Below, in pieces: positions 28,644 to 35,657 of a stretch of 44,254 bases of DNA. The stretch is from positions 1-44,254 of the forward strand of contig PEVN01000539.1 in assembly GCA_002779825.1 (NCBI GenBank), given 5' to 3'. Each line of letters starts with the position of its first letter. The stretch's first letter is position 1. This stretch comes from Armatimonadetes bacterium CG06_land_8_20_14_3_00_66_21 (GTDB lineage: Bacteria > Armatimonadota > Abditibacteriia > CG2-30-66-41). The notes below the pieces were generated by a model. It saw only the letters and a program-made list of their open reading frames with translations, ran no database searches and was not told the origin of the DNA. Both the position numbers and the translations under genes were made by a program.

Positions 28644-29078
28644 CTACTTGGCTCTCCCGCTCTCCGAGCTGGACCAGGTTGCCAGGAACTCCTCAGGCGT
28701 GAGAACCGGCGGGCCCGTTTGAGGGAAGTCGCCGGGATCGCGCGAAATGAGGTACCGCGCCTTCGCGCGCACGGCCGAGTGGAACTGAACCGCGTCCTCG
28801 AAATCGTCCAGGGGAGAGTCGATCGACTGGTTGGTGATTCTGGCGTCTGGAGCAATCGGCTCGAAGACGTCTCTTACCAGTCGCAACGCCTCTCTCGCCT
28901 TGTCCTTACTCTCGGCCTTCCTGATGATGTAGTAGAGATTGTTGAAGCTGATGGCGGACACGCACGCCTTCACCTCTCCACGTTCAGCCAAGGACCAGAC
29001 TTGCGCGGCCGCCGAGTAGAACGGCTCACGCTTCGCCAGCACGTCGAGCAGCACATTCGTGTCGACGAACAGGGTCAT
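28644..29078 (-). CDS. PIN-domain toxin (VapC-like)
   Basis: A 144-residue PIN-fold ribonuclease. The metal-binding acids are in place: Asp in FVDTNVLLD near the N-terminus, Asp in DDFEDAVQFHSAV and Asp in ISRDPGDF. Such toxins usually cleave tRNA or rRNA. The start ATG overlaps the stop of the upstream antitoxin by 4 bp (ATGA), the usual antitoxin-toxin coupling. Confidence 0.92.
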   Translation of the reverse strand: MTLFVDTNVLLDVLAKREPFYSAAAQVWSLAERGEVKACVSAISFNNLYYIIRKAESKDKAREALRLVRDVFEPIAPDARITNQSIDSPLDDFEDAVQFHSAVRAKARYLISRDPGDFPQTGPPVLTPEEFLATWSSSESGRAK

Positions 29079-29335
29079 GGCTGCACCTGGTACTTCTCAG
29101 CCAGCGCCTCGGTCAGCAGTTCGTGATCGGGGCGATCGTCCGGAAGCCGAACCAGACCGACGGCCCGCTCCGTGAGCGGACCAAGCGGCAACGCGGCTTC
29201 GTCCCGTTCAGGCCTCGCGGCAACGACGAATCGGGCGAACATGGCCGAAACGCTCGTGTGCCGGGCCCGAGCGAGTTCCTTCGCTTCGTTCACCAGCGCT
29301 CCGTCGGCGCTGAGGGTCAGCTTGACGGTTGGCAT
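29075..29335 (-). CDS. DUF6364-type antitoxin (ribbon-helix-helix-like)
   Basis: An 86-residue antitoxin partner of the PIN toxin. MPTVKLTLSADGALVNEAKELARARHTSVSAMFARF has the beta strand plus two helices of ribbon-helix-helix DNA-binding antitoxins, and the acidic C-terminus would bind the toxin. GGAGG 8 nt upstream sets ATG 29335; an in-frame ATG at 29350 lies inside or before that site. A clear promoter with flanking direct repeats lies just upstream. Confidence 0.88.
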   Translation of the reverse strand: MPTVKLTLSADGALVNEAKELARARHTSVSAMFARFVVAARPERDEAALPLGPLTERAVGLVRLPDDRPDHELLTEALAEKYQVQP

Positions 29336-29349
29336 CTGCGTAGCCTCCA

Positions 29350-29397
29350 TACGTGCTTCTCAGGGAGAATAGTACGTGCTTCAGACAAACGCGTCAA
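29350..29397 (-). promoter_or_regulatory. Promoter and candidate operator of the DUF6364/PIN module
   Basis: On the minus strand TTGACG (29397-29392), a 17-bp spacer and TACTAT (29374-29369) make a good sigma70 promoter. Two perfect copies of GAAGCACGTA (29382-29373 and 29359-29350) lie 23 bp apart, about two helical turns, one overlapping the -10 box. They are placed as an antitoxin would need for autorepression. Confidence 0.7.
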
Positions 29398-29646: not shown

Positions 29647-31683
29647 TCAACAGAACCACACAATATACTCCCGCGCCTTCGGCGTGAACATCCCCAGGAT
29701 ACCCCACAGCCCGCCACCGACGAGGTAGTGCCCCATGACCAGACCGAAGAAGGCCGGCGCCATGCAAACGCGGAGGGAGGCACCGCCGAGGCGGTGGATG
29801 AGGGTCTTCAGCGTCCAGGCCGTCAGGAAGGCGAACCAGGGGACGTGACCGTAGGCGGCGGCGACGGCGAAGCCGAGGGGCGCCAGCGGGAAGCGAAGGA
29901 TGAGCGAACGCACAACGGTCAGCGCGCAGACGACGGCAAACCCGACGCCCAGGAAGGCGGCGTGCATCCGGTCCGGCGAAAGGGGCGTCGCAAGCATGCT
30001 GTCGAGCTGGCGGAAGATCGACACGGCTTGCTGCGTGCGGTAGCCGCCCAGGATGGTGCCGCCGTCGATCACGTTGTTGCCGTACTTGTAGAAGGCGGTC
30101 AGGTGCGTAAAGTAGCCGCCAGCGATTCCCAGTACCAGCCCCAGCAGAATCGCCCACACCGCCAGGTCGCGCCGCCGCGCCCCGACGACTTCCTCGGCCT
30201 TCATGGCTTCGAGTCCGTCGGCCATGAAGTTCTGAACCGCCAGGCGATCGAAGATGCTCAGCGTGGAGAGTGCCACCAATGGCCGGACCCCCGCGCCGCC
30301 GGCCAACGCCTGACTCCCAAACGTCGAGTAGAGCCCGCGCACCCACTGCCCGATTGGCCAGGCGTAGCTCATCGGGATACCCATCTCGGCGCGCATGCGT
30401 GAGTACACAAGCGGCGTGGCGAACAGCAAGGTGGTGTAGAGGGCGGCAACCCACGGCCGAATGCCGACCACCACGAAGAACGCCCACAGCGCCACGCCGC
30501 CCAGGCAGCCGCCGGCAAGCGCCAACCGGTACGGAAGCGGCTCCCGGCCCTCAGCCCCGGTGGTCCCGCGTCCGAGGACTGAGCGGGCGACGGCCGCCAG
30601 GTGGTGTCGCGCGGCGTAGACGAGACACACCGCCAGCGCCAGGTACGCCCCCTGCGACTGCGCCGCCTCGAAGGGCACGCCCGGCAGCGACAAGCCGAAC
30701 AACTCAGCGAAGAACTTCTCGAACCGCAGCACCAGGTAGAACAGCCACACCGAGAGGCACGCTTCCTGGGGCGCGAAGTAGGCCAGCCCCACCACCTCCG
30801 GGCGGAAGTGCATGGGGATCGGCCGAAGCCCGGACCACGGCTTCTCCGTGAGGAACTGCCCGAAGTCGAACTGCAACCCGGTGGCCGGAACGCTGGGGTC
30901 GAAGATGTGCGCGATGTTGAACAGGTTGAACACGGCCGACACGGCGAACCCCATCCAGAAGAGGCCGCTGCTCAGCAACGGCGGCATGCGGGTCCGACGC
31001 CGAGTGCCGCCCATGGTCTCCGACGACGCTTCGCCAGCGTCGAGAAGATGCACAGCCAGCCCCACCAGCGGGAAGGAGAGCCGCTCATTGCGCGTCCACT
31101 GCTCGCGGAACAGCGTGATCCAACACAGCATCGCCACGGTGTAGACCACCAGGATAGCCGCCCAAACCAGGAGCGGCACAGCCCACCCTCCCCACGGGAC
31201 CGCGCCGCTCGGCGTGCCCTCGAACATATCCAGGATGAGCTTCGGGTCCTGCGGTGTCAGCCAGCGAGGCAGCTCCTCCGCAAACTGAGCGAAGTGGTTC
31301 TCCGGGGAGGCGTAGTACGGCAGGACCGTCAGCGTCGGCAGCAGTTGCCGGACGATGTTGGCGCAGGAGATCGGCGCGATGATGGTCAGGGCGAAGTAGA
31401 CGACCAAGCTCTCCGGGCGCGACAGCGCCAGTTGCTTGCACCAGCGGCGCACTCTCGGTCCCAGCCCGCCAATCAGAACCAGTGCCACCACGGCAGGAAG
31501 CGCCGGCGTCCCCTCGCCGACGAGACAGGTGAAGTCGATCAGCGAGGCACGGCGGATCCAGATCAGGCTCAGCGTGCCGAGGACCAGTAGAACGAGGACA
31601 CTGCGTGGCGTGAAACCAGGCAGCGGTGCGGAGGCTGTGACCTCGGCGTCTGCGCGTTCGTTGAGGTCGGGTGAGGCGCCCAT
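29647..31683 (-). CDS. DUF6785/DUF6784-type multi-pass membrane protein
   Basis: A 678-residue integral membrane protein with about 12-14 hydrophobic segments, starting with SVLVLLVLGTLSLIW and ending in a short VGGGLWGILGMFTP region. The pattern ESLVVYFALTIIAPISC, FREQWTRNERLSFPL and MRAEMGIPMSYAWPIGQW fits the DUF6785 (N-terminal) plus DUF6784 (C-terminal) family seen in Planctomycetota, Armatimonadota and Lentisphaerota, which distantly resembles oligopeptide transporters. Substrate unknown. Its ATG lies 3 bp after the aminotransferase stop, and the ribosome site (TAGGAG) overlaps that stop, so the two are translationally linked. Confidence 0.85.
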   Translation of the reverse strand: MGASPDLNERADAEVTASAPLPGFTPRSVLVLLVLGTLSLIWIRRASLIDFTCLVGEGTPALPAVVALVLIGGLGPRVRRWCKQLALSRPESLVVYFALTIIAPISCANIVRQLLPTLTVLPYYASPENHFAQFAEELPRWLTPQDPKLILDMFEGTPSGAVPWGGWAVPLLVWAAILVVYTVAMLCWITLFREQWTRNERLSFPLVGLAVHLLDAGEASSETMGGTRRRTRMPPLLSSGLFWMGFAVSAVFNLFNIAHIFDPSVPATGLQFDFGQFLTEKPWSGLRPIPMHFRPEVVGLAYFAPQEACLSVWLFYLVLRFEKFFAELFGLSLPGVPFEAAQSQGAYLALAVCLVYAARHHLAAVARSVLGRGTTGAEGREPLPYRLALAGGCLGGVALWAFFVVVGIRPWVAALYTTLLFATPLVYSRMRAEMGIPMSYAWPIGQWVRGLYSTFGSQALAGGAGVRPLVALSTLSIFDRLAVQNFMADGLEAMKAEEVVGARRRDLAVWAILLGLVLGIAGGYFTHLTAFYKYGNNVIDGGTILGGYRTQQAVSIFRQLDSMLATPLSPDRMHAAFLGVGFAVVCALTVVRSLILRFPLAPLGFAVAAAYGHVPWFAFLTAWTLKTLIHRLGGASLRVCMAPAFFGLVMGHYLVGGGLWGILGMFTPKAREYIVWFC

Positions 31684-31686
31684 CTC

Positions 31687-32610
31687 CTACGACCCCGCCA
31701 CGATCTGACCCACGATGTCCATCCCCACCTTCTCGCTCCACGCTGCGATGAGCTTCGCGAACACCGGGCCCGGCTTCCCGGTGCCGATCTCGACACCGTT
31801 GATCCGGGTCACCGGCGCCAGGCAGTAGGGGGTGCTGGACAGGAAGGCTTCGTCGGCGTTGACCACGTCGTACACCTGTAGCTCGCGCGCCTCGAAGCCC
31901 AAGCCCAATTCGGCGCACAATTCCGCCACGGTCGCAAGGCTGATGCCCCACAGGATGTTTCGCTGGCTGGGGCTCAGGACGACGTTGTCTTTGGCGATCA
32001 GGAAGTTGGAGCCGCTGGTCTCGGTGACGTTCCCGTCGAGGTCGAGGCAGAGAGTGACGGCCTTCGGATCGACGAGATGCGCTTCCTGATCGGCCAGCCA
32101 CCAGTGCATCCGGCTGCGGCACTTGATCTTCGGGTCGATGCACTGCGGCGGGACGTGGCGGATCGACGGCGTGACGCAGTGCACGCCCTCGGTGTAGTAG
32201 TGGCTCCAGTACTCGAAGGGCAGCGGGAAGGTGTGCATGCAGTACGTCGGCGTCAGGTCGCCCGGCGCCCCCGCGGCGCCGGCGTACACGCGGAACTCGC
32301 CGGGCGAGATGAACTGGACGAGGGCAAGCTCTCTCTCGGGCGCGAGCAACGACGCGTTGTGCGCAATCAGCTCGCGCGCGAGGGTCACCGTCTCCTCGGG
32401 CGTCTCGACGGGCTGGATCCGGGCGTACTTACAGGATCGATAGAACCGCGCTACGTGATCTTCGAGGCGGTACGGCTGCTGCCGGAAGGTCCGCGTCAGG
32501 TCGGTAACCGTGGCGCCCAGGATGATCGCCGCATCGTAGATGGCGAGGTGCGCTTGCGACGCCGGCACTTTGCGGCCGTTGAGGTAGACAAGAGGCTCAG
32601 GTCCGGGCAT
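31687..32610 (-). CDS. Class IV (branched-chain-type) aminotransferase
   Basis: A 307-residue PLP-dependent fold-type IV enzyme, as in IlvE, D-amino acid aminotransferase and aminodeoxychorismate lyase. VYLNGRKVPASQAHLAIYDAAI is the family start. DPKIKCRSRMHWWLADQEA holds the likely PLP-binding Lys region, and NVTETSGSNFLIAKDN plus SLATVAELCAELGL fit the phosphate-binding part. The exact amino donor cannot be read from sequence. It is followed after 3 bp by the DUF6785 membrane protein, suggesting a common amino-compound pathway. The start ATG 32610 lies about 57 bp from the gene fragment upstream. Confidence 0.9.
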   Translation of the reverse strand: MPGPEPLVYLNGRKVPASQAHLAIYDAAIILGATVTDLTRTFRQQPYRLEDHVARFYRSCKYARIQPVETPEETVTLARELIAHNASLLAPERELALVQFISPGEFRVYAGAAGAPGDLTPTYCMHTFPLPFEYWSHYYTEGVHCVTPSIRHVPPQCIDPKIKCRSRMHWWLADQEAHLVDPKAVTLCLDLDGNVTETSGSNFLIAKDNVVLSPSQRNILWGISLATVAELCAELGLGFEARELQVYDVVNADEAFLSSTPYCLAPVTRINGVEIGTGKPGPVFAKLIAAWSEKVGMDIVGQIVAGS

Positions 32611-32667
32611 GGCTCGATCTCCTTCGACAACGCGTCTGCCCCTGTCCGGCTACTCTCCCGCGGAGGA

Positions 32668-32923
32668 CTAGTAGGGGTAATGCGCCGTCCGCCCCCAATT
32701 CCCTGCCCCGTCTCGCGAGCGGACGTGGAAGAACCACTGCCCGGGTTCGCTGGGTTGGGGGAGCAATGCTTTCGCTTCCTTGCCTTCCGGCTGCGCATCC
32801 GGCGCTGTGTCGGTGGAGCGGTCGAGGACGTAGCTGTGCTCGGCGATTCCGGTAGCGTCGACGGTCTGCCAGGTGAACGACGGGGGCGTGGGGGCGGGGG
32901 CGGTCAGGGCGAAGTTGTCGAGG
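32668..32923 (-). pseudogene. C-terminal fragment of a secreted Ig/Fn-like protein
   Basis: This frame ends in PGQWFFHVRSRDGAGNWGRTAHYPY, the type of tail found on Ig- or fibronectin-like repeats of secreted bacterial proteins, and starts with VYLDNFALTAPAP, like the end of a beta-sandwich domain. Upstream the frame runs into the inverted-repeat element beginning at 32924, and no start of such a protein is found beyond it. It is therefore a truncated gene end, cut at or by the element. Confidence 0.6.
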
Positions 32924-33072
32924 TATACCCGCGAAGGTTGGGAACACACCGAAGTCCCGGTGCGACTTCGGCTCCGTCTGGGAGAATCCCCTCTGTCCTA
33001 CGTCTGCTGCACGCCTGCCGGGGAAGTTCCGCGAACTTCCACTTCGGTGTATTCCTAACCTTCGCGACTATA
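32924..33072. repeat. 149-bp MITE-like element with 32-bp imperfect terminal inverted repeats
   Basis: The left end (32924-32955) and the reverse complement of the right end (33041-33072) match at 28 of 32 positions, sharing GCGAAGGTT, GGAA and ACACCGAAGT. Both ends begin with TATA. Inside are two further hairpins: CCGAAGTC/GACTTCGG (32949-32971, 7-nt loop) and GGAAGTT/AACTTCC (33022-33040, 5-nt loop). It encodes nothing. Gene fragments on both sides stop at its borders, which fits a non-autonomous transposable element. Confidence 0.7.
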
Positions 33073-33490
33073 GCAGAGCTTCGCTCGCGCCAAGACGATC
33101 GCGTCGTCCTGCGTCTGGAGCGCGAGGCCGTGACTCGAACCTGTTCCGGGGACAGTCTCAAGGAGATGTGGGCTGAACTGGACCGGGTCTCCGCCGGCTA
33201 CCTCCGTGTCGGCGACCAACTCCTCTGTCAGTTGGGCCACATCACCGACCCGCAGAAGCGCTGCCTGGAACAGCTCCGAGTACCGCTGACAATCCGCCTC
33301 GGTAGCGAGTAAGGTGCCGCGAAAACGGGCGGGGAAGGCTCCTACGGGCACTTCTTGACACTTATGATCAAACTTCCGTATACAGCATGGGACGGGGACA
33401 TGCGCGATGAGGATCGGACCAAACCCAAGCGTGGGTGCGACGTCATTCCCGCAGTTGGCGAACGGTCGCCCTGCCCTCCTCGGCCTGCAC
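33073..33490. other. No assured gene; two competing open frames
   Basis: On the plus strand a frame open from the element edge to the TAA ending at 33312 encodes about 80 residues (AELRSRQDDRVVLRLEREAV ... RVPLTIRLGSE) with strongly G/C-biased third positions, but it has no start codon. On the minus strand a frame from GTG 33351 to 33055 encodes 98 residues (VPVGAFPARFRG ... ARAKLCYSREG) with weaker bias. I recognise neither. The plus-strand frame may be the 3' remnant of a gene cut by the element. 33352-33490 holds nothing that I can support. Confidence 0.5.
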
Positions 33491-34378
33491 TCACGGCTCA
33501 TAGACGGCGACGACCATCCCGTAGTACGAGGGGACGGCGTACGAGAGGAAGTCGACGTCCATCGGCACAGCGTTGAGTGCGCCCGCCAGAACCAGCGTCT
33601 GCCAGAGCGAGTCTGACCAGGAGTCCACCAGCATCTTCTCACTGATGTCCAGCAGCCGATCGAGGCGGTTGGCGGTGACCGCCTCGCAGTACAGGGCATC
33701 GTACTGAGCCGATGCGGACGAGTAGCCGAACCGCTGGTGGTTGGGGTCATGCGTGTGACCGTGGTCCGCCGAAGCGATCAGTGCCAGGCGCTTGCCCGAG
33801 TCCCGCGCGACCTCGGCAAGCAAACCGCCGAAACGCACCAGCGTCTCCCGCGGCACCGCCGGACTGGGGGCAATCACCACAAGCCGCGGCCGCGGCAGCG
33901 GCAAGGGCCGGAGCGTGAACCAAAGCGGCATCAGCGCTCCGCCCACCAGCGGCAGTTCGCCGTGCTTGCCCGGGTCTTCGGCGACCGGGAATGACCCGGC
34001 CCCACCCGTCTCCAGAATGGCCCGCGCCAGGGATTCGTCGCACTGGAACTGCTCCCTAACGTGACCCATCGCGCCGCCGGCATGCGCGGCCACGCCGACG
34101 GAGAGCGTCCCTTTGCCGCGGAACAGGGAACGCTGCTCGAACGAGTTCTGCGTGTGGATCAGGCCCGTGACTGCCATCGGCTTCCGGGTGACCGACTGGT
34201 CTCTGGCCGGCACACCTCCCCTGCGGAATAGACGACAGGTCGACGTCGGTGAGCCAAACAGTCGCCGGCTCAGCGCCGAAGGGCGCCGCGGCGTCGACGC
34301 CGAGAAGTATGACGAGCCACGTGGGTTGAGGCGAGTGGCGGCTCGTGGCACGTCTCCCCGCAGTGGACGTATGTACAT
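33491..34378 (-). CDS. LigB-type (class III extradiol dioxygenase-like) protein, N-terminally truncated
   Basis: The C-terminal 220 residues match LigB/MEMO-fold proteins: GALMPLWFTLRPLP, RLVVIAPSPAVPRETLVRFG, LALIASADHGHTHDPNHQRFGY and SYAVPSYYGMVVAVYEP at the end. The normal first 60 or so residues, which carry metal-binding His, are missing. The residues before about MAVTG (ATG 34177) are Arg/Ser-rich and look non-coding in this frame. In a neighbouring frame, upstream text LLGVDAAAPFGAEPATVWL continues with TDVDLSSIPQG, resembling a signal peptide plus NPCBM start. The apparent start at 34378 is therefore doubtful and the gene is probably a remnant. Confidence 0.65.
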   Translation of the reverse strand: MYIRPLRGDVPRAATRLNPRGSSYFSASTPRRPSALSRRLFGSPTSTCRLFRRGGVPARDQSVTRKPMAVTGLIHTQNSFEQRSLFRGKGTLSVGVAAHAGGAMGHVREQFQCDESLARAILETGGAGSFPVAEDPGKHGELPLVGGALMPLWFTLRPLPLPRPRLVVIAPSPAVPRETLVRFGGLLAEVARDSGKRLALIASADHGHTHDPNHQRFGYSSASAQYDALYCEAVTANRLDRLLDISEKMLVDSWSDSLWQTLVLAGALNAVPMDVDFLSYAVPSYYGMVVAVYEP

Positions 34379-34392
34379 CCAGTGGCTATACT
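34364..34392 (+). promoter_or_regulatory. Candidate promoter of the Phd/VapC-type module
   Basis: TGGACG (34364-34369), a 17-bp spacer and TATACT (34387-34392) lie 46 bp before the antitoxin ATG. The palindrome ATGTACAT (34371-34378) sits in the spacer and could be the antitoxin operator. Confidence 0.5.
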
Positions 34393-34438
34393 GTCGGTAT
34401 CGACTTGGTCATGCCGGGCGCCCTGGAGTGATCTCCCC

Positions 34439-34693
34439 ATGAGAGCCTTCTCCATTGCCGAAGCACGAAACCGACTTCCGTCTCTCGTCCACGAAGTGGA
34501 AGCTGGACCCGCAGTCGAACTGACCAGGCACGGCCACGCAGCAGCCGTGCTTCTTTTTCATCCGCAATACCACAAGCTCACGGAGAAGCGCGCCGGGTTC
34601 TGGGACGCGCTGAGGGGCTTCCGATGGCCGGACCCGGACACGTTCGAGGGTCTGCGCGACAAATCGCCGGGACGCGAGCAGGACTTGTTCTGA
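34439..34693 (+). CDS. Phd/YefM-like antitoxin
   Basis: An 84-residue antitoxin. MRAFSIAEARNRLPSLVHEVEAGPAVELTRHGHAAAVLLF is the typical Phd/YefM DNA-binding N-terminus (compare 'ARxxLxxLxxxVxxGxxVxITRxGxPxAVL'), followed by a toxin-binding tail. GGAG lies about 10 nt before ATG 34439. The stop overlaps the start of the toxin remnant by one base (TGATG). It now lacks a full toxin partner. Confidence 0.88.
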   Translation: MRAFSIAEARNRLPSLVHEVEAGPAVELTRHGHAAAVLLFHPQYHKLTEKRAGFWDALRGFRWPDPDTFEGLRDKSPGREQDLF

Positions 34694-34942: not shown

Positions 34943-35392
34943 TCAAGCCGCCGGTCTGACCTCGACGAACCGCGCAGACCGCTTGAAGTCCCCAACGTTG
35001 TGAGTGACCACGGTCCCAATCCCGTGCACCAGCATCGTTGCCACGATATTGGCGTCGTGGATCTGCTTGCCGCCGACCTCCACCTCTTCCAGGAGTTGGA
35101 GGAGTCGCAGGGTCACTGCCGGGCCGTCCTCGGCAATCTGGAACCTCTGCTCAAAGTCGCGGATGTCATTGACTGCCTCGGCCGCTGGAAGCAGCACGGC
35201 ATAGGTCTGCGGCCGGGTCAGGACAGCTAAGTACTCGCGCAGTACCTGCCGACTGACGAAGGTCTCGGTACCGGCCCTGCGGAGGTCGCCCAACAGCCTG
35301 CGGCTCTCTGCGTGCCAGGGAGCGGAGGCGATCGCAGCATACACCAAGACCGTCGTATCGACGAAGAGGCGCTCAACGCCCGGTATCGCCAT
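34943..35392 (-). CDS. PIN-domain toxin
   Basis: A 149-residue PIN-fold ribonuclease: LFVDTTVLVYAA carries the first acid, VSRQVLREYLAVLTRP the second region, HDANIVATMLVHG and THNVGDFKR the remaining acids. It starts at ATG 35392, 20 bp inside the 3' end of the antitoxin frame. All active-site acids appear to be kept, so the toxin may be functional if its antitoxin is expressed. Confidence 0.9.
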   Translation of the reverse strand: MAIPGVERLFVDTTVLVYAAIASAPWHAESRRLLGDLRRAGTETFVSRQVLREYLAVLTRPQTYAVLLPAAEAVNDIRDFEQRFQIAEDGPAVTLRLLQLLEEVEVGGKQIHDANIVATMLVHGIGTVVTHNVGDFKRSARFVEVRPAA

Positions 35393-35657
35393 AGAGGTCC
35401 TCGCGTCGCAGTGATAGGCGGTCCGGCCACGGGCCAAGATCGTGCTTCGGCAACTCGGAAACGGCTGCCCTGGGGACAGAGGGCGCAGGGCAATCGTCGA
35501 CTGTAAGGGCCACGCGATGCGCGCCGATTGGGAGATCGAACGGGAGTCGGATGACCAATGCTCCTCCCGGCTGCAGCGTCGCAGTGGTGTGGATCGTTCT
35601 CCCGGGGCAAGCACCTCCTGCCAGGTATCCGCGCGCGCTCGGAGTGAACTGACTCAC
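35373..35657 (-). CDS. Putative antitoxin of the PIN toxin; start unclear
   Basis: The frame encodes TIHTTATLQPGGALVIRLPF, then a Pro-rich linker, then HDLGPWPDRLSLRREDLYGD and a short tail. That tail ('xWPxxLSLRREDLYGDxGR') and the short beta-strand N-terminus are typical of small antitoxins found directly before PIN toxins. The position where ATG would be expected reads ACG (35597-35595), although AGGAGG lies 16 nt upstream. The nearest accepted in-frame start is GTG 35657, giving 94 residues. The same frame is open upstream into the caspase region. Expression is uncertain. Confidence 0.55.
   Translation of the reverse strand: MSQFTPSARGYLAGGACPGRTIHTTATLQPGGALVIRLPFDLPIGAHRVALTVDDCPAPSVPRAAVSELPKHDLGPWPDRLSLRREDLYGDTGR

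Follow-up and report, generated by a model that had tools for sequence, protein, structure and literature searches.

A recently spread family of TA-targeting MITEs in the draft genome of an Armatimonadetes bacterium

The RUP element of Streptococcus pneumoniae is described, in the available part of PMC2229807, as a 107-bp non-coding sequence with a TA target, present in about 108 copies of high identity and moved, on indirect evidence, by IS630-Spn1. The Correia/NEMIS elements of Neisseria, according to the accessible portions of PMC2229807 and PMC10969869, measure about 107-155 bp, carry 24-bp TIRs and TA termini, number more than 120 copies and can disrupt genes. Among IS630/Tc1-mariner elements, ISY100 inserts almost only into TA, which is duplicated, its 24-bp TIRs being probably sufficient in cis (excerpted text of PMC2170065). 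Rickettsia palindromic elements appear in part of PMC10969869 as palindromic repeats of about 150 bp that can sit in genes in frame.

Here, we analysed a window of 44,254 nucleotides (contig PEVN01000539.1, assembly GCA_002779825.1) from Armatimonadetes bacterium CG06_land_8_20_14_3_00_66_21, whose genome is available as a draft assembly of 8.29 Mb in 578 contigs. A first-pass annotation had pointed out in this window a short inverted-repeat element and had read it as a non-autonomous transposable element that broke local genes. Our analysis indicates that it almost certainly belongs to a family of non-autonomous DNA transposons (MITEs) that is young and present in high copy number, a conclusion that takes in a proposed mobilisation in trans and a proposed hybrid origin of the window copy. 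The element is thus of a known kind, while the family itself appears to be undescribed: in literature on TA-target, IS630-related and Planctomycetes-linked MITEs and on Correia, NEMIS and RUP elements, no title or abstract opening named it, the comparison being made by description and not by sequence.

The element and its copies in the genome

The element consists of 145 bp between two TA dinucleotides, corresponding to window positions 32924-33072 (149 bp including both TAs), and has no second copy within the window. Its outer 32-base ends match in inverted orientation at 28 of 32 positions and carry TATA at both extremities, which reproduces the initial description. The non-coding body (32926..33070), delimited by similarity to other copies and by subfamily typing, has a G-type interior; in its own genome it finds itself at 100% and 39 other scored copies at 95-98%. 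At 145 bp it is too short for a transposase gene, in keeping with the short, transposase-less character of MITEs. TIR typing assigned the 30-bp left TIR (32926..32955, plus strand, TACCCGCGAAGGTTGGGAACACACCGAAGT) to the G type and the right TIR (33041..33070, minus strand) to the A type, in the form with a TAGT right end that 10 A-type copies show.

Folded as DNA, the element reached -40.3 kcal/mol, versus -19.95 +/- 2.82 in 200 shuffles, none of which equalled it (z -7.2); folded as RNA, it gave a z of -7.5. Two extra hairpins had been reported inside the element, and both can be written, namely CCGAAGTC...GACTTCGG at 32949..32971 and GGAAGTTC-CGC-GAACTTCC at 33022..33040, but only the right one is present in the minimum-energy folds; the left one, read from the sequence, does not form there because it competes with the TIR stem.

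A search of the genome with the TIR pattern, allowing up to two mismatches, returned 316 matches (161 + 155), versus 0 + 0 for the reversed-pattern control, and the family comprises about 150-160 copies. We fetched 140 loci (L001-L140), covering about three quarters of these matches, and read 106 distinct end pairings. The exact length of 149 bp, counting the TAs, was found in 102 of the 106, and TA at both ends in 98; CA/CA (L033) and TC/TC (L104) are also compatible with a 2-bp duplication, and the remaining six pairings have unequal ends. Four pairings were kept out of the 102. The lengths of 153 bp (L118) and 73 bp (L075) are genuine variants, whereas we did not count as such a 221-bp pairing, an artefact of a nested copy that combines the outer left end with the inner right end, and a 179-bp pairing (L081), which is an interrupted copy. 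The 73-bp form (L075, 1334-1406, G000:C160) is a deletion form, a near-perfect palindrome with little beyond its TIRs. Similarity between the flanks of different copies ends at the element borders or within a few bases of them, and the same TIR type occurs at both ends in 87 of the 102 full-length copies.

The most direct view of an insertion event is provided by L076, where a G-type copy, intact on both sides, has an A-type copy nested in it. The host sequence ...CAGACGTAGGACAG... is split at its TA, and TA flanks the inner copy on both sides; L077, which a contig end truncates, is nested in the same way and at that very TA. Since this nesting shows a filled and an empty site, it fixes the element borders and the TA duplication independently of any related genome, and it shows that A-type copies moved once G-type copies were already in place. 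In the window, the TAs at 32924..32925 and 33071..33072 are the left and right copies of the duplicated target, both assigned from the TA/TA count over pairings and the left one also from the nested site. The first-pass annotation had named multiple copies with TA duplications in the source genome as support for its transposon reading, and a single copy conserved at orthologous positions as an RNA structure as its refutation; the genome holds the former, its copy number and duplications contradict the latter, and the copies, the TA duplication and the nested site together support a non-autonomous transposable element.

Insertions favour a palindromic context, W-G-S-TA-S-C-W, around the TA. The mean target score is 4.32 of 6 at 102 insertion sites versus 3.03 at the 4127 remaining TA sites in these loci (p 2.5e-27 by the Mann-Whitney test, an optimistic value given that the motif was derived from the sites on which it is scored, with a large gap nonetheless). 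A duplicated TA target, a trait of MITEs derived from IS630/Tc1-mariner, is found in this family, and since Tc1/mariner/IS630 elements as a rule target TA and duplicate it (PMC2170065), the mobilising transposase is probably of this type. In the mechanism that we propose, a DDE transposase acting in trans, most likely of the IS630/Tc1-mariner type, would cut at the TIRs and join the cut ends to both strands of a TA.

The transposase with matching ends that was suggested as a check did not turn up in the draft assembly. PF13358 (IS630 DDE_3) had 0 matches in the draft genome, an absence that counts as weak evidence in a draft, and three PF01609 (DDE_Tnp_1) loci all lie without a MITE TIR. A genome-wide pattern for TIRs without MITE sequence after them, which an autonomous copy sharing more than about 22 bp of the MITE ends or lost in assembly gaps would escape, hit nine places, namely eight MITE variants and contig C103. 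On this contig (L080), a frame stops just before the TIR; we rejected it as the end of an autonomous element, since the sequence recurs at 8 places beside unrelated DNA and ends at GTAGTTAC, and it is another repeat, probably an IS, inside a MITE. The occurrences of this repeat (L080/L141, G000:C103:1-160, and L142-L148) lie at or near contig ends and end in GTGAGTAGTTAC, one of them inside a MITE TIR. The lone TIR of L081 (contig C7) was also dismissed, as this site holds a different repeat end within an R-type copy and next to a stretch of N. That repeat end, TAATACTACAACCGTACTTAGC, falls within 3045-3223 of L081 (G000:C7), and related stretches occur in L053, L076 and L094. Other lone TIR ends are shortened copies or contig ends.

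Subfamilies and the hybrid copy of the window

Body and ends together divide the family into three subfamilies, A (49 copies), G (34) and R (19). The mean number of differences from the consensus per 149 bases is 1.69 in A, 1.26 in G and 1.89 in R, and 9, 11 and 6 copies, respectively, are identical to it. Copies lying about 1% from their subfamily consensus indicate a recent spread, that is, a burst. The family was matched in one of seven genomes of the class and in one of 291 of the phylum (a scan scoring at most two candidates per genome), its own genome alone both times; searches of viral contigs (exact pattern), plasmids and phages gave no match.

The A and G subfamilies differ at 47 positions, whereas G and R differ at four, mirrored in the two TIRs (17, 18 and 132, 133); both TIRs of one A-type body are of the R type. 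In the window copy, body and left end are G-type and the right TIR is A-type, which makes it a hybrid. This right TIR departs from the G type at TIR positions 5, 6, 17 and 22, always with the A-type right-end state, and its position-5 change is found at the right end of 10 A copies. The simplest origin of these mixed TIRs would be that a G-type copy and an A-type copy recombined or underwent gene conversion via the right-hand stretch that they share.

A broader reading, which we put forward tentatively, is suggested by the mirrored G/R differences and by the A-type body with R-type TIRs at both ends: the family would change both TIRs together, and the two TIRs may be kept alike, and subfamilies enabled to exchange their end types, by a step that copies one end onto the other, such as fold-back repair accompanying or following transposition; the window hybrid would then be a half-converted intermediate. 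Single-copy TIR differences fall on one arm in 57 cases versus 6 mirrored ones, which speaks against frequent ongoing conversion.

Genes around the insertions and competing explanations

At the left border of the window copy, the secreted-protein C-terminal fragment noticed initially is real as an open minus-strand frame (32671..32922, 84 aa) that looks like the C-terminus of a secreted protein. It forms the downstream piece of a frame whose upstream piece spans 33073..33777 on the minus strand and loses its coding-like character beyond about 33312. Removing the element, so that a single TA links the flanks, yields one open minus-strand frame, with positive codon scores near the element on both sides. 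Neither piece has a match in Pfam (up to E 10) or NCBIfam, nor does the upstream piece have one in PDB. With the element present, this frame meets a TAG 15 bases in, within the A-type right end, so the window copy probably interrupts one minus-strand gene; it would have inserted into that gene, whose frame would then have been stopped by this TAG.

On the other strand, the start-less frame thought to begin at the right border belongs to a 411-aa frame (32077-33312), which runs open from the left through the element and has no match in Pfam or PDB. It makes a poor gene candidate, given that to the right of the element its codon scores (0.20, 0.23, 0.12) are not above those of the opposite minus frame (0.19, 0.10, 0.26), neither strand winning. 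The flanks are therefore best read as one interrupted minus-strand gene, not as two gene fragments facing each other at the element.

Elsewhere in the window, the regions 34382-34693 (+), 34943-35614 (-) and 28644-29350 (-) hold a Phd-type antitoxin, a VapC-like PIN protein below the family cut-off and a second pair, PIN/antitoxin-like on visual inspection, with no family match. A membrane protein with DUF6785/DUF6784 is encoded at 29647-31683 (-), and a protein search of the genome contigs found no relatives of it.

Across the family, copies were called intragenic by a home-made codon score with a fixed threshold, applied to the joined flanks; by this rough measure, open coding-like frames contain 26 of 105 copies, versus 379 of 525 control TA sites. 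The family is thus depleted from genes, though not absent from them. Each of the 26 intragenic copies adds a number of bases divisible by 3, the net insert being 147 bases (49 codons); 18 of the frames, that of the window copy included, run into a stop within the element, and the other eight remain open.

A Pfam search covered 20 pieces from 10 of the 26 intragenic copies, plus the window copy. The clearest case is an alpha-L-fucosidase gene (L120), split into an upstream piece matching profile positions 10-174 and a downstream piece matching 189-345. The family match is restricted to the upstream piece for a response regulator (L126) and for DUF4838 with a weak GH67 N-terminus (L092), and to the downstream piece for a melibiase (L033). 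L019 has weak matches to two different families, one per side, and in L018 the reading frame continues through the element, with a PAS domain on one side and a histidine kinase on the other. The gene breakage claimed in the first-pass annotation therefore holds for the family in several places, cleanly so in L120, but in the window the interruption of a single gene is only likely.

Could the element instead be a conserved structured RNA or a regulatory palindrome, fixed in position and non-mobile? Its strong folding would fit, yet about 150 copies with unrelated flanks, the TA duplication and the nested insertion run against this view, as do the lack of an Rfam match in the window and of any terminator-like or promoter-like site at 32850-33150, which makes it barely credible. 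It is also very improbable that the family represents a repeat akin to the Rickettsia palindromic elements, retained in genes by in-frame read-through: although the constant multiple of 3, the eight open frames and the read-through of L018 are what such a repeat would display, most intragenic copies, including that of the window, stop the frame inside the element, and genes contain fewer copies than the control TA sites would lead one to expect. Such read-through is disfavoured for the family as a whole and could hold for single copies.

The remaining alternative concerns the window copy itself, whose flanks could derive from two genes if recombination between a G-type and an A-type copy, or misassembly, had joined unrelated loci. 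The copy is indeed a G/A hybrid between two frames without family matches, contigs break inside copies elsewhere, leaving lone ends at contig ends, and misjoining at a repeat may have occurred in a draft of 578 contigs. However, a single minus-strand frame stays open across the joined flanks, with codon scores that are positive to either side of the junction, and L002, a further hybrid, is likewise situated in an open coding-like frame, showing that hybrids need no rearrangement; we consider this explanation unlikely.

Significance and comparison with known systems

As a MITE family, these roughly 150 recent insertions, some of them in glycosidase and signalling genes, constitute a source of recent gene loss and of assembly breaks. 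In a lineage with one genome in its order among those compared, the copies provide evidence of a recent burst. The three subfamilies, the mirrored TIR changes and the hybrids offer material on how MITE ends stay matched; this question apart, the window harbours an ordinary mobile element.

Judged by the available parts of the cited descriptions, the family resembles RUP in being short, TA-targeting, non-coding and present in many near-identical copies, but differs from it in TIR sequence and size (9 contiguous pairs in RUP) and in that RUP has a candidate partner IS, whereas none was found for the window family. With the Correia/NEMIS elements, as partially described, it shares a size of about 100-200 bp, long TIRs, TA, at least about 100 copies and gene disruption, in another sequence and another taxon. 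TA insertion with duplication is common to the family and to ISY100, in the excerpted account of the latter; IS630/Tc1-mariner elements, however, encode their transposase, while the window element lacks a transposase gene and the genome yielded no gene of this type. Finally, the family resembles the Rickettsia palindromic elements, as far as the cited portion describes them, in being a palindromic repeat of about 150 bp that can sit in genes in frame, but it is mainly intergenic, and most of its intragenic copies stop the frame.
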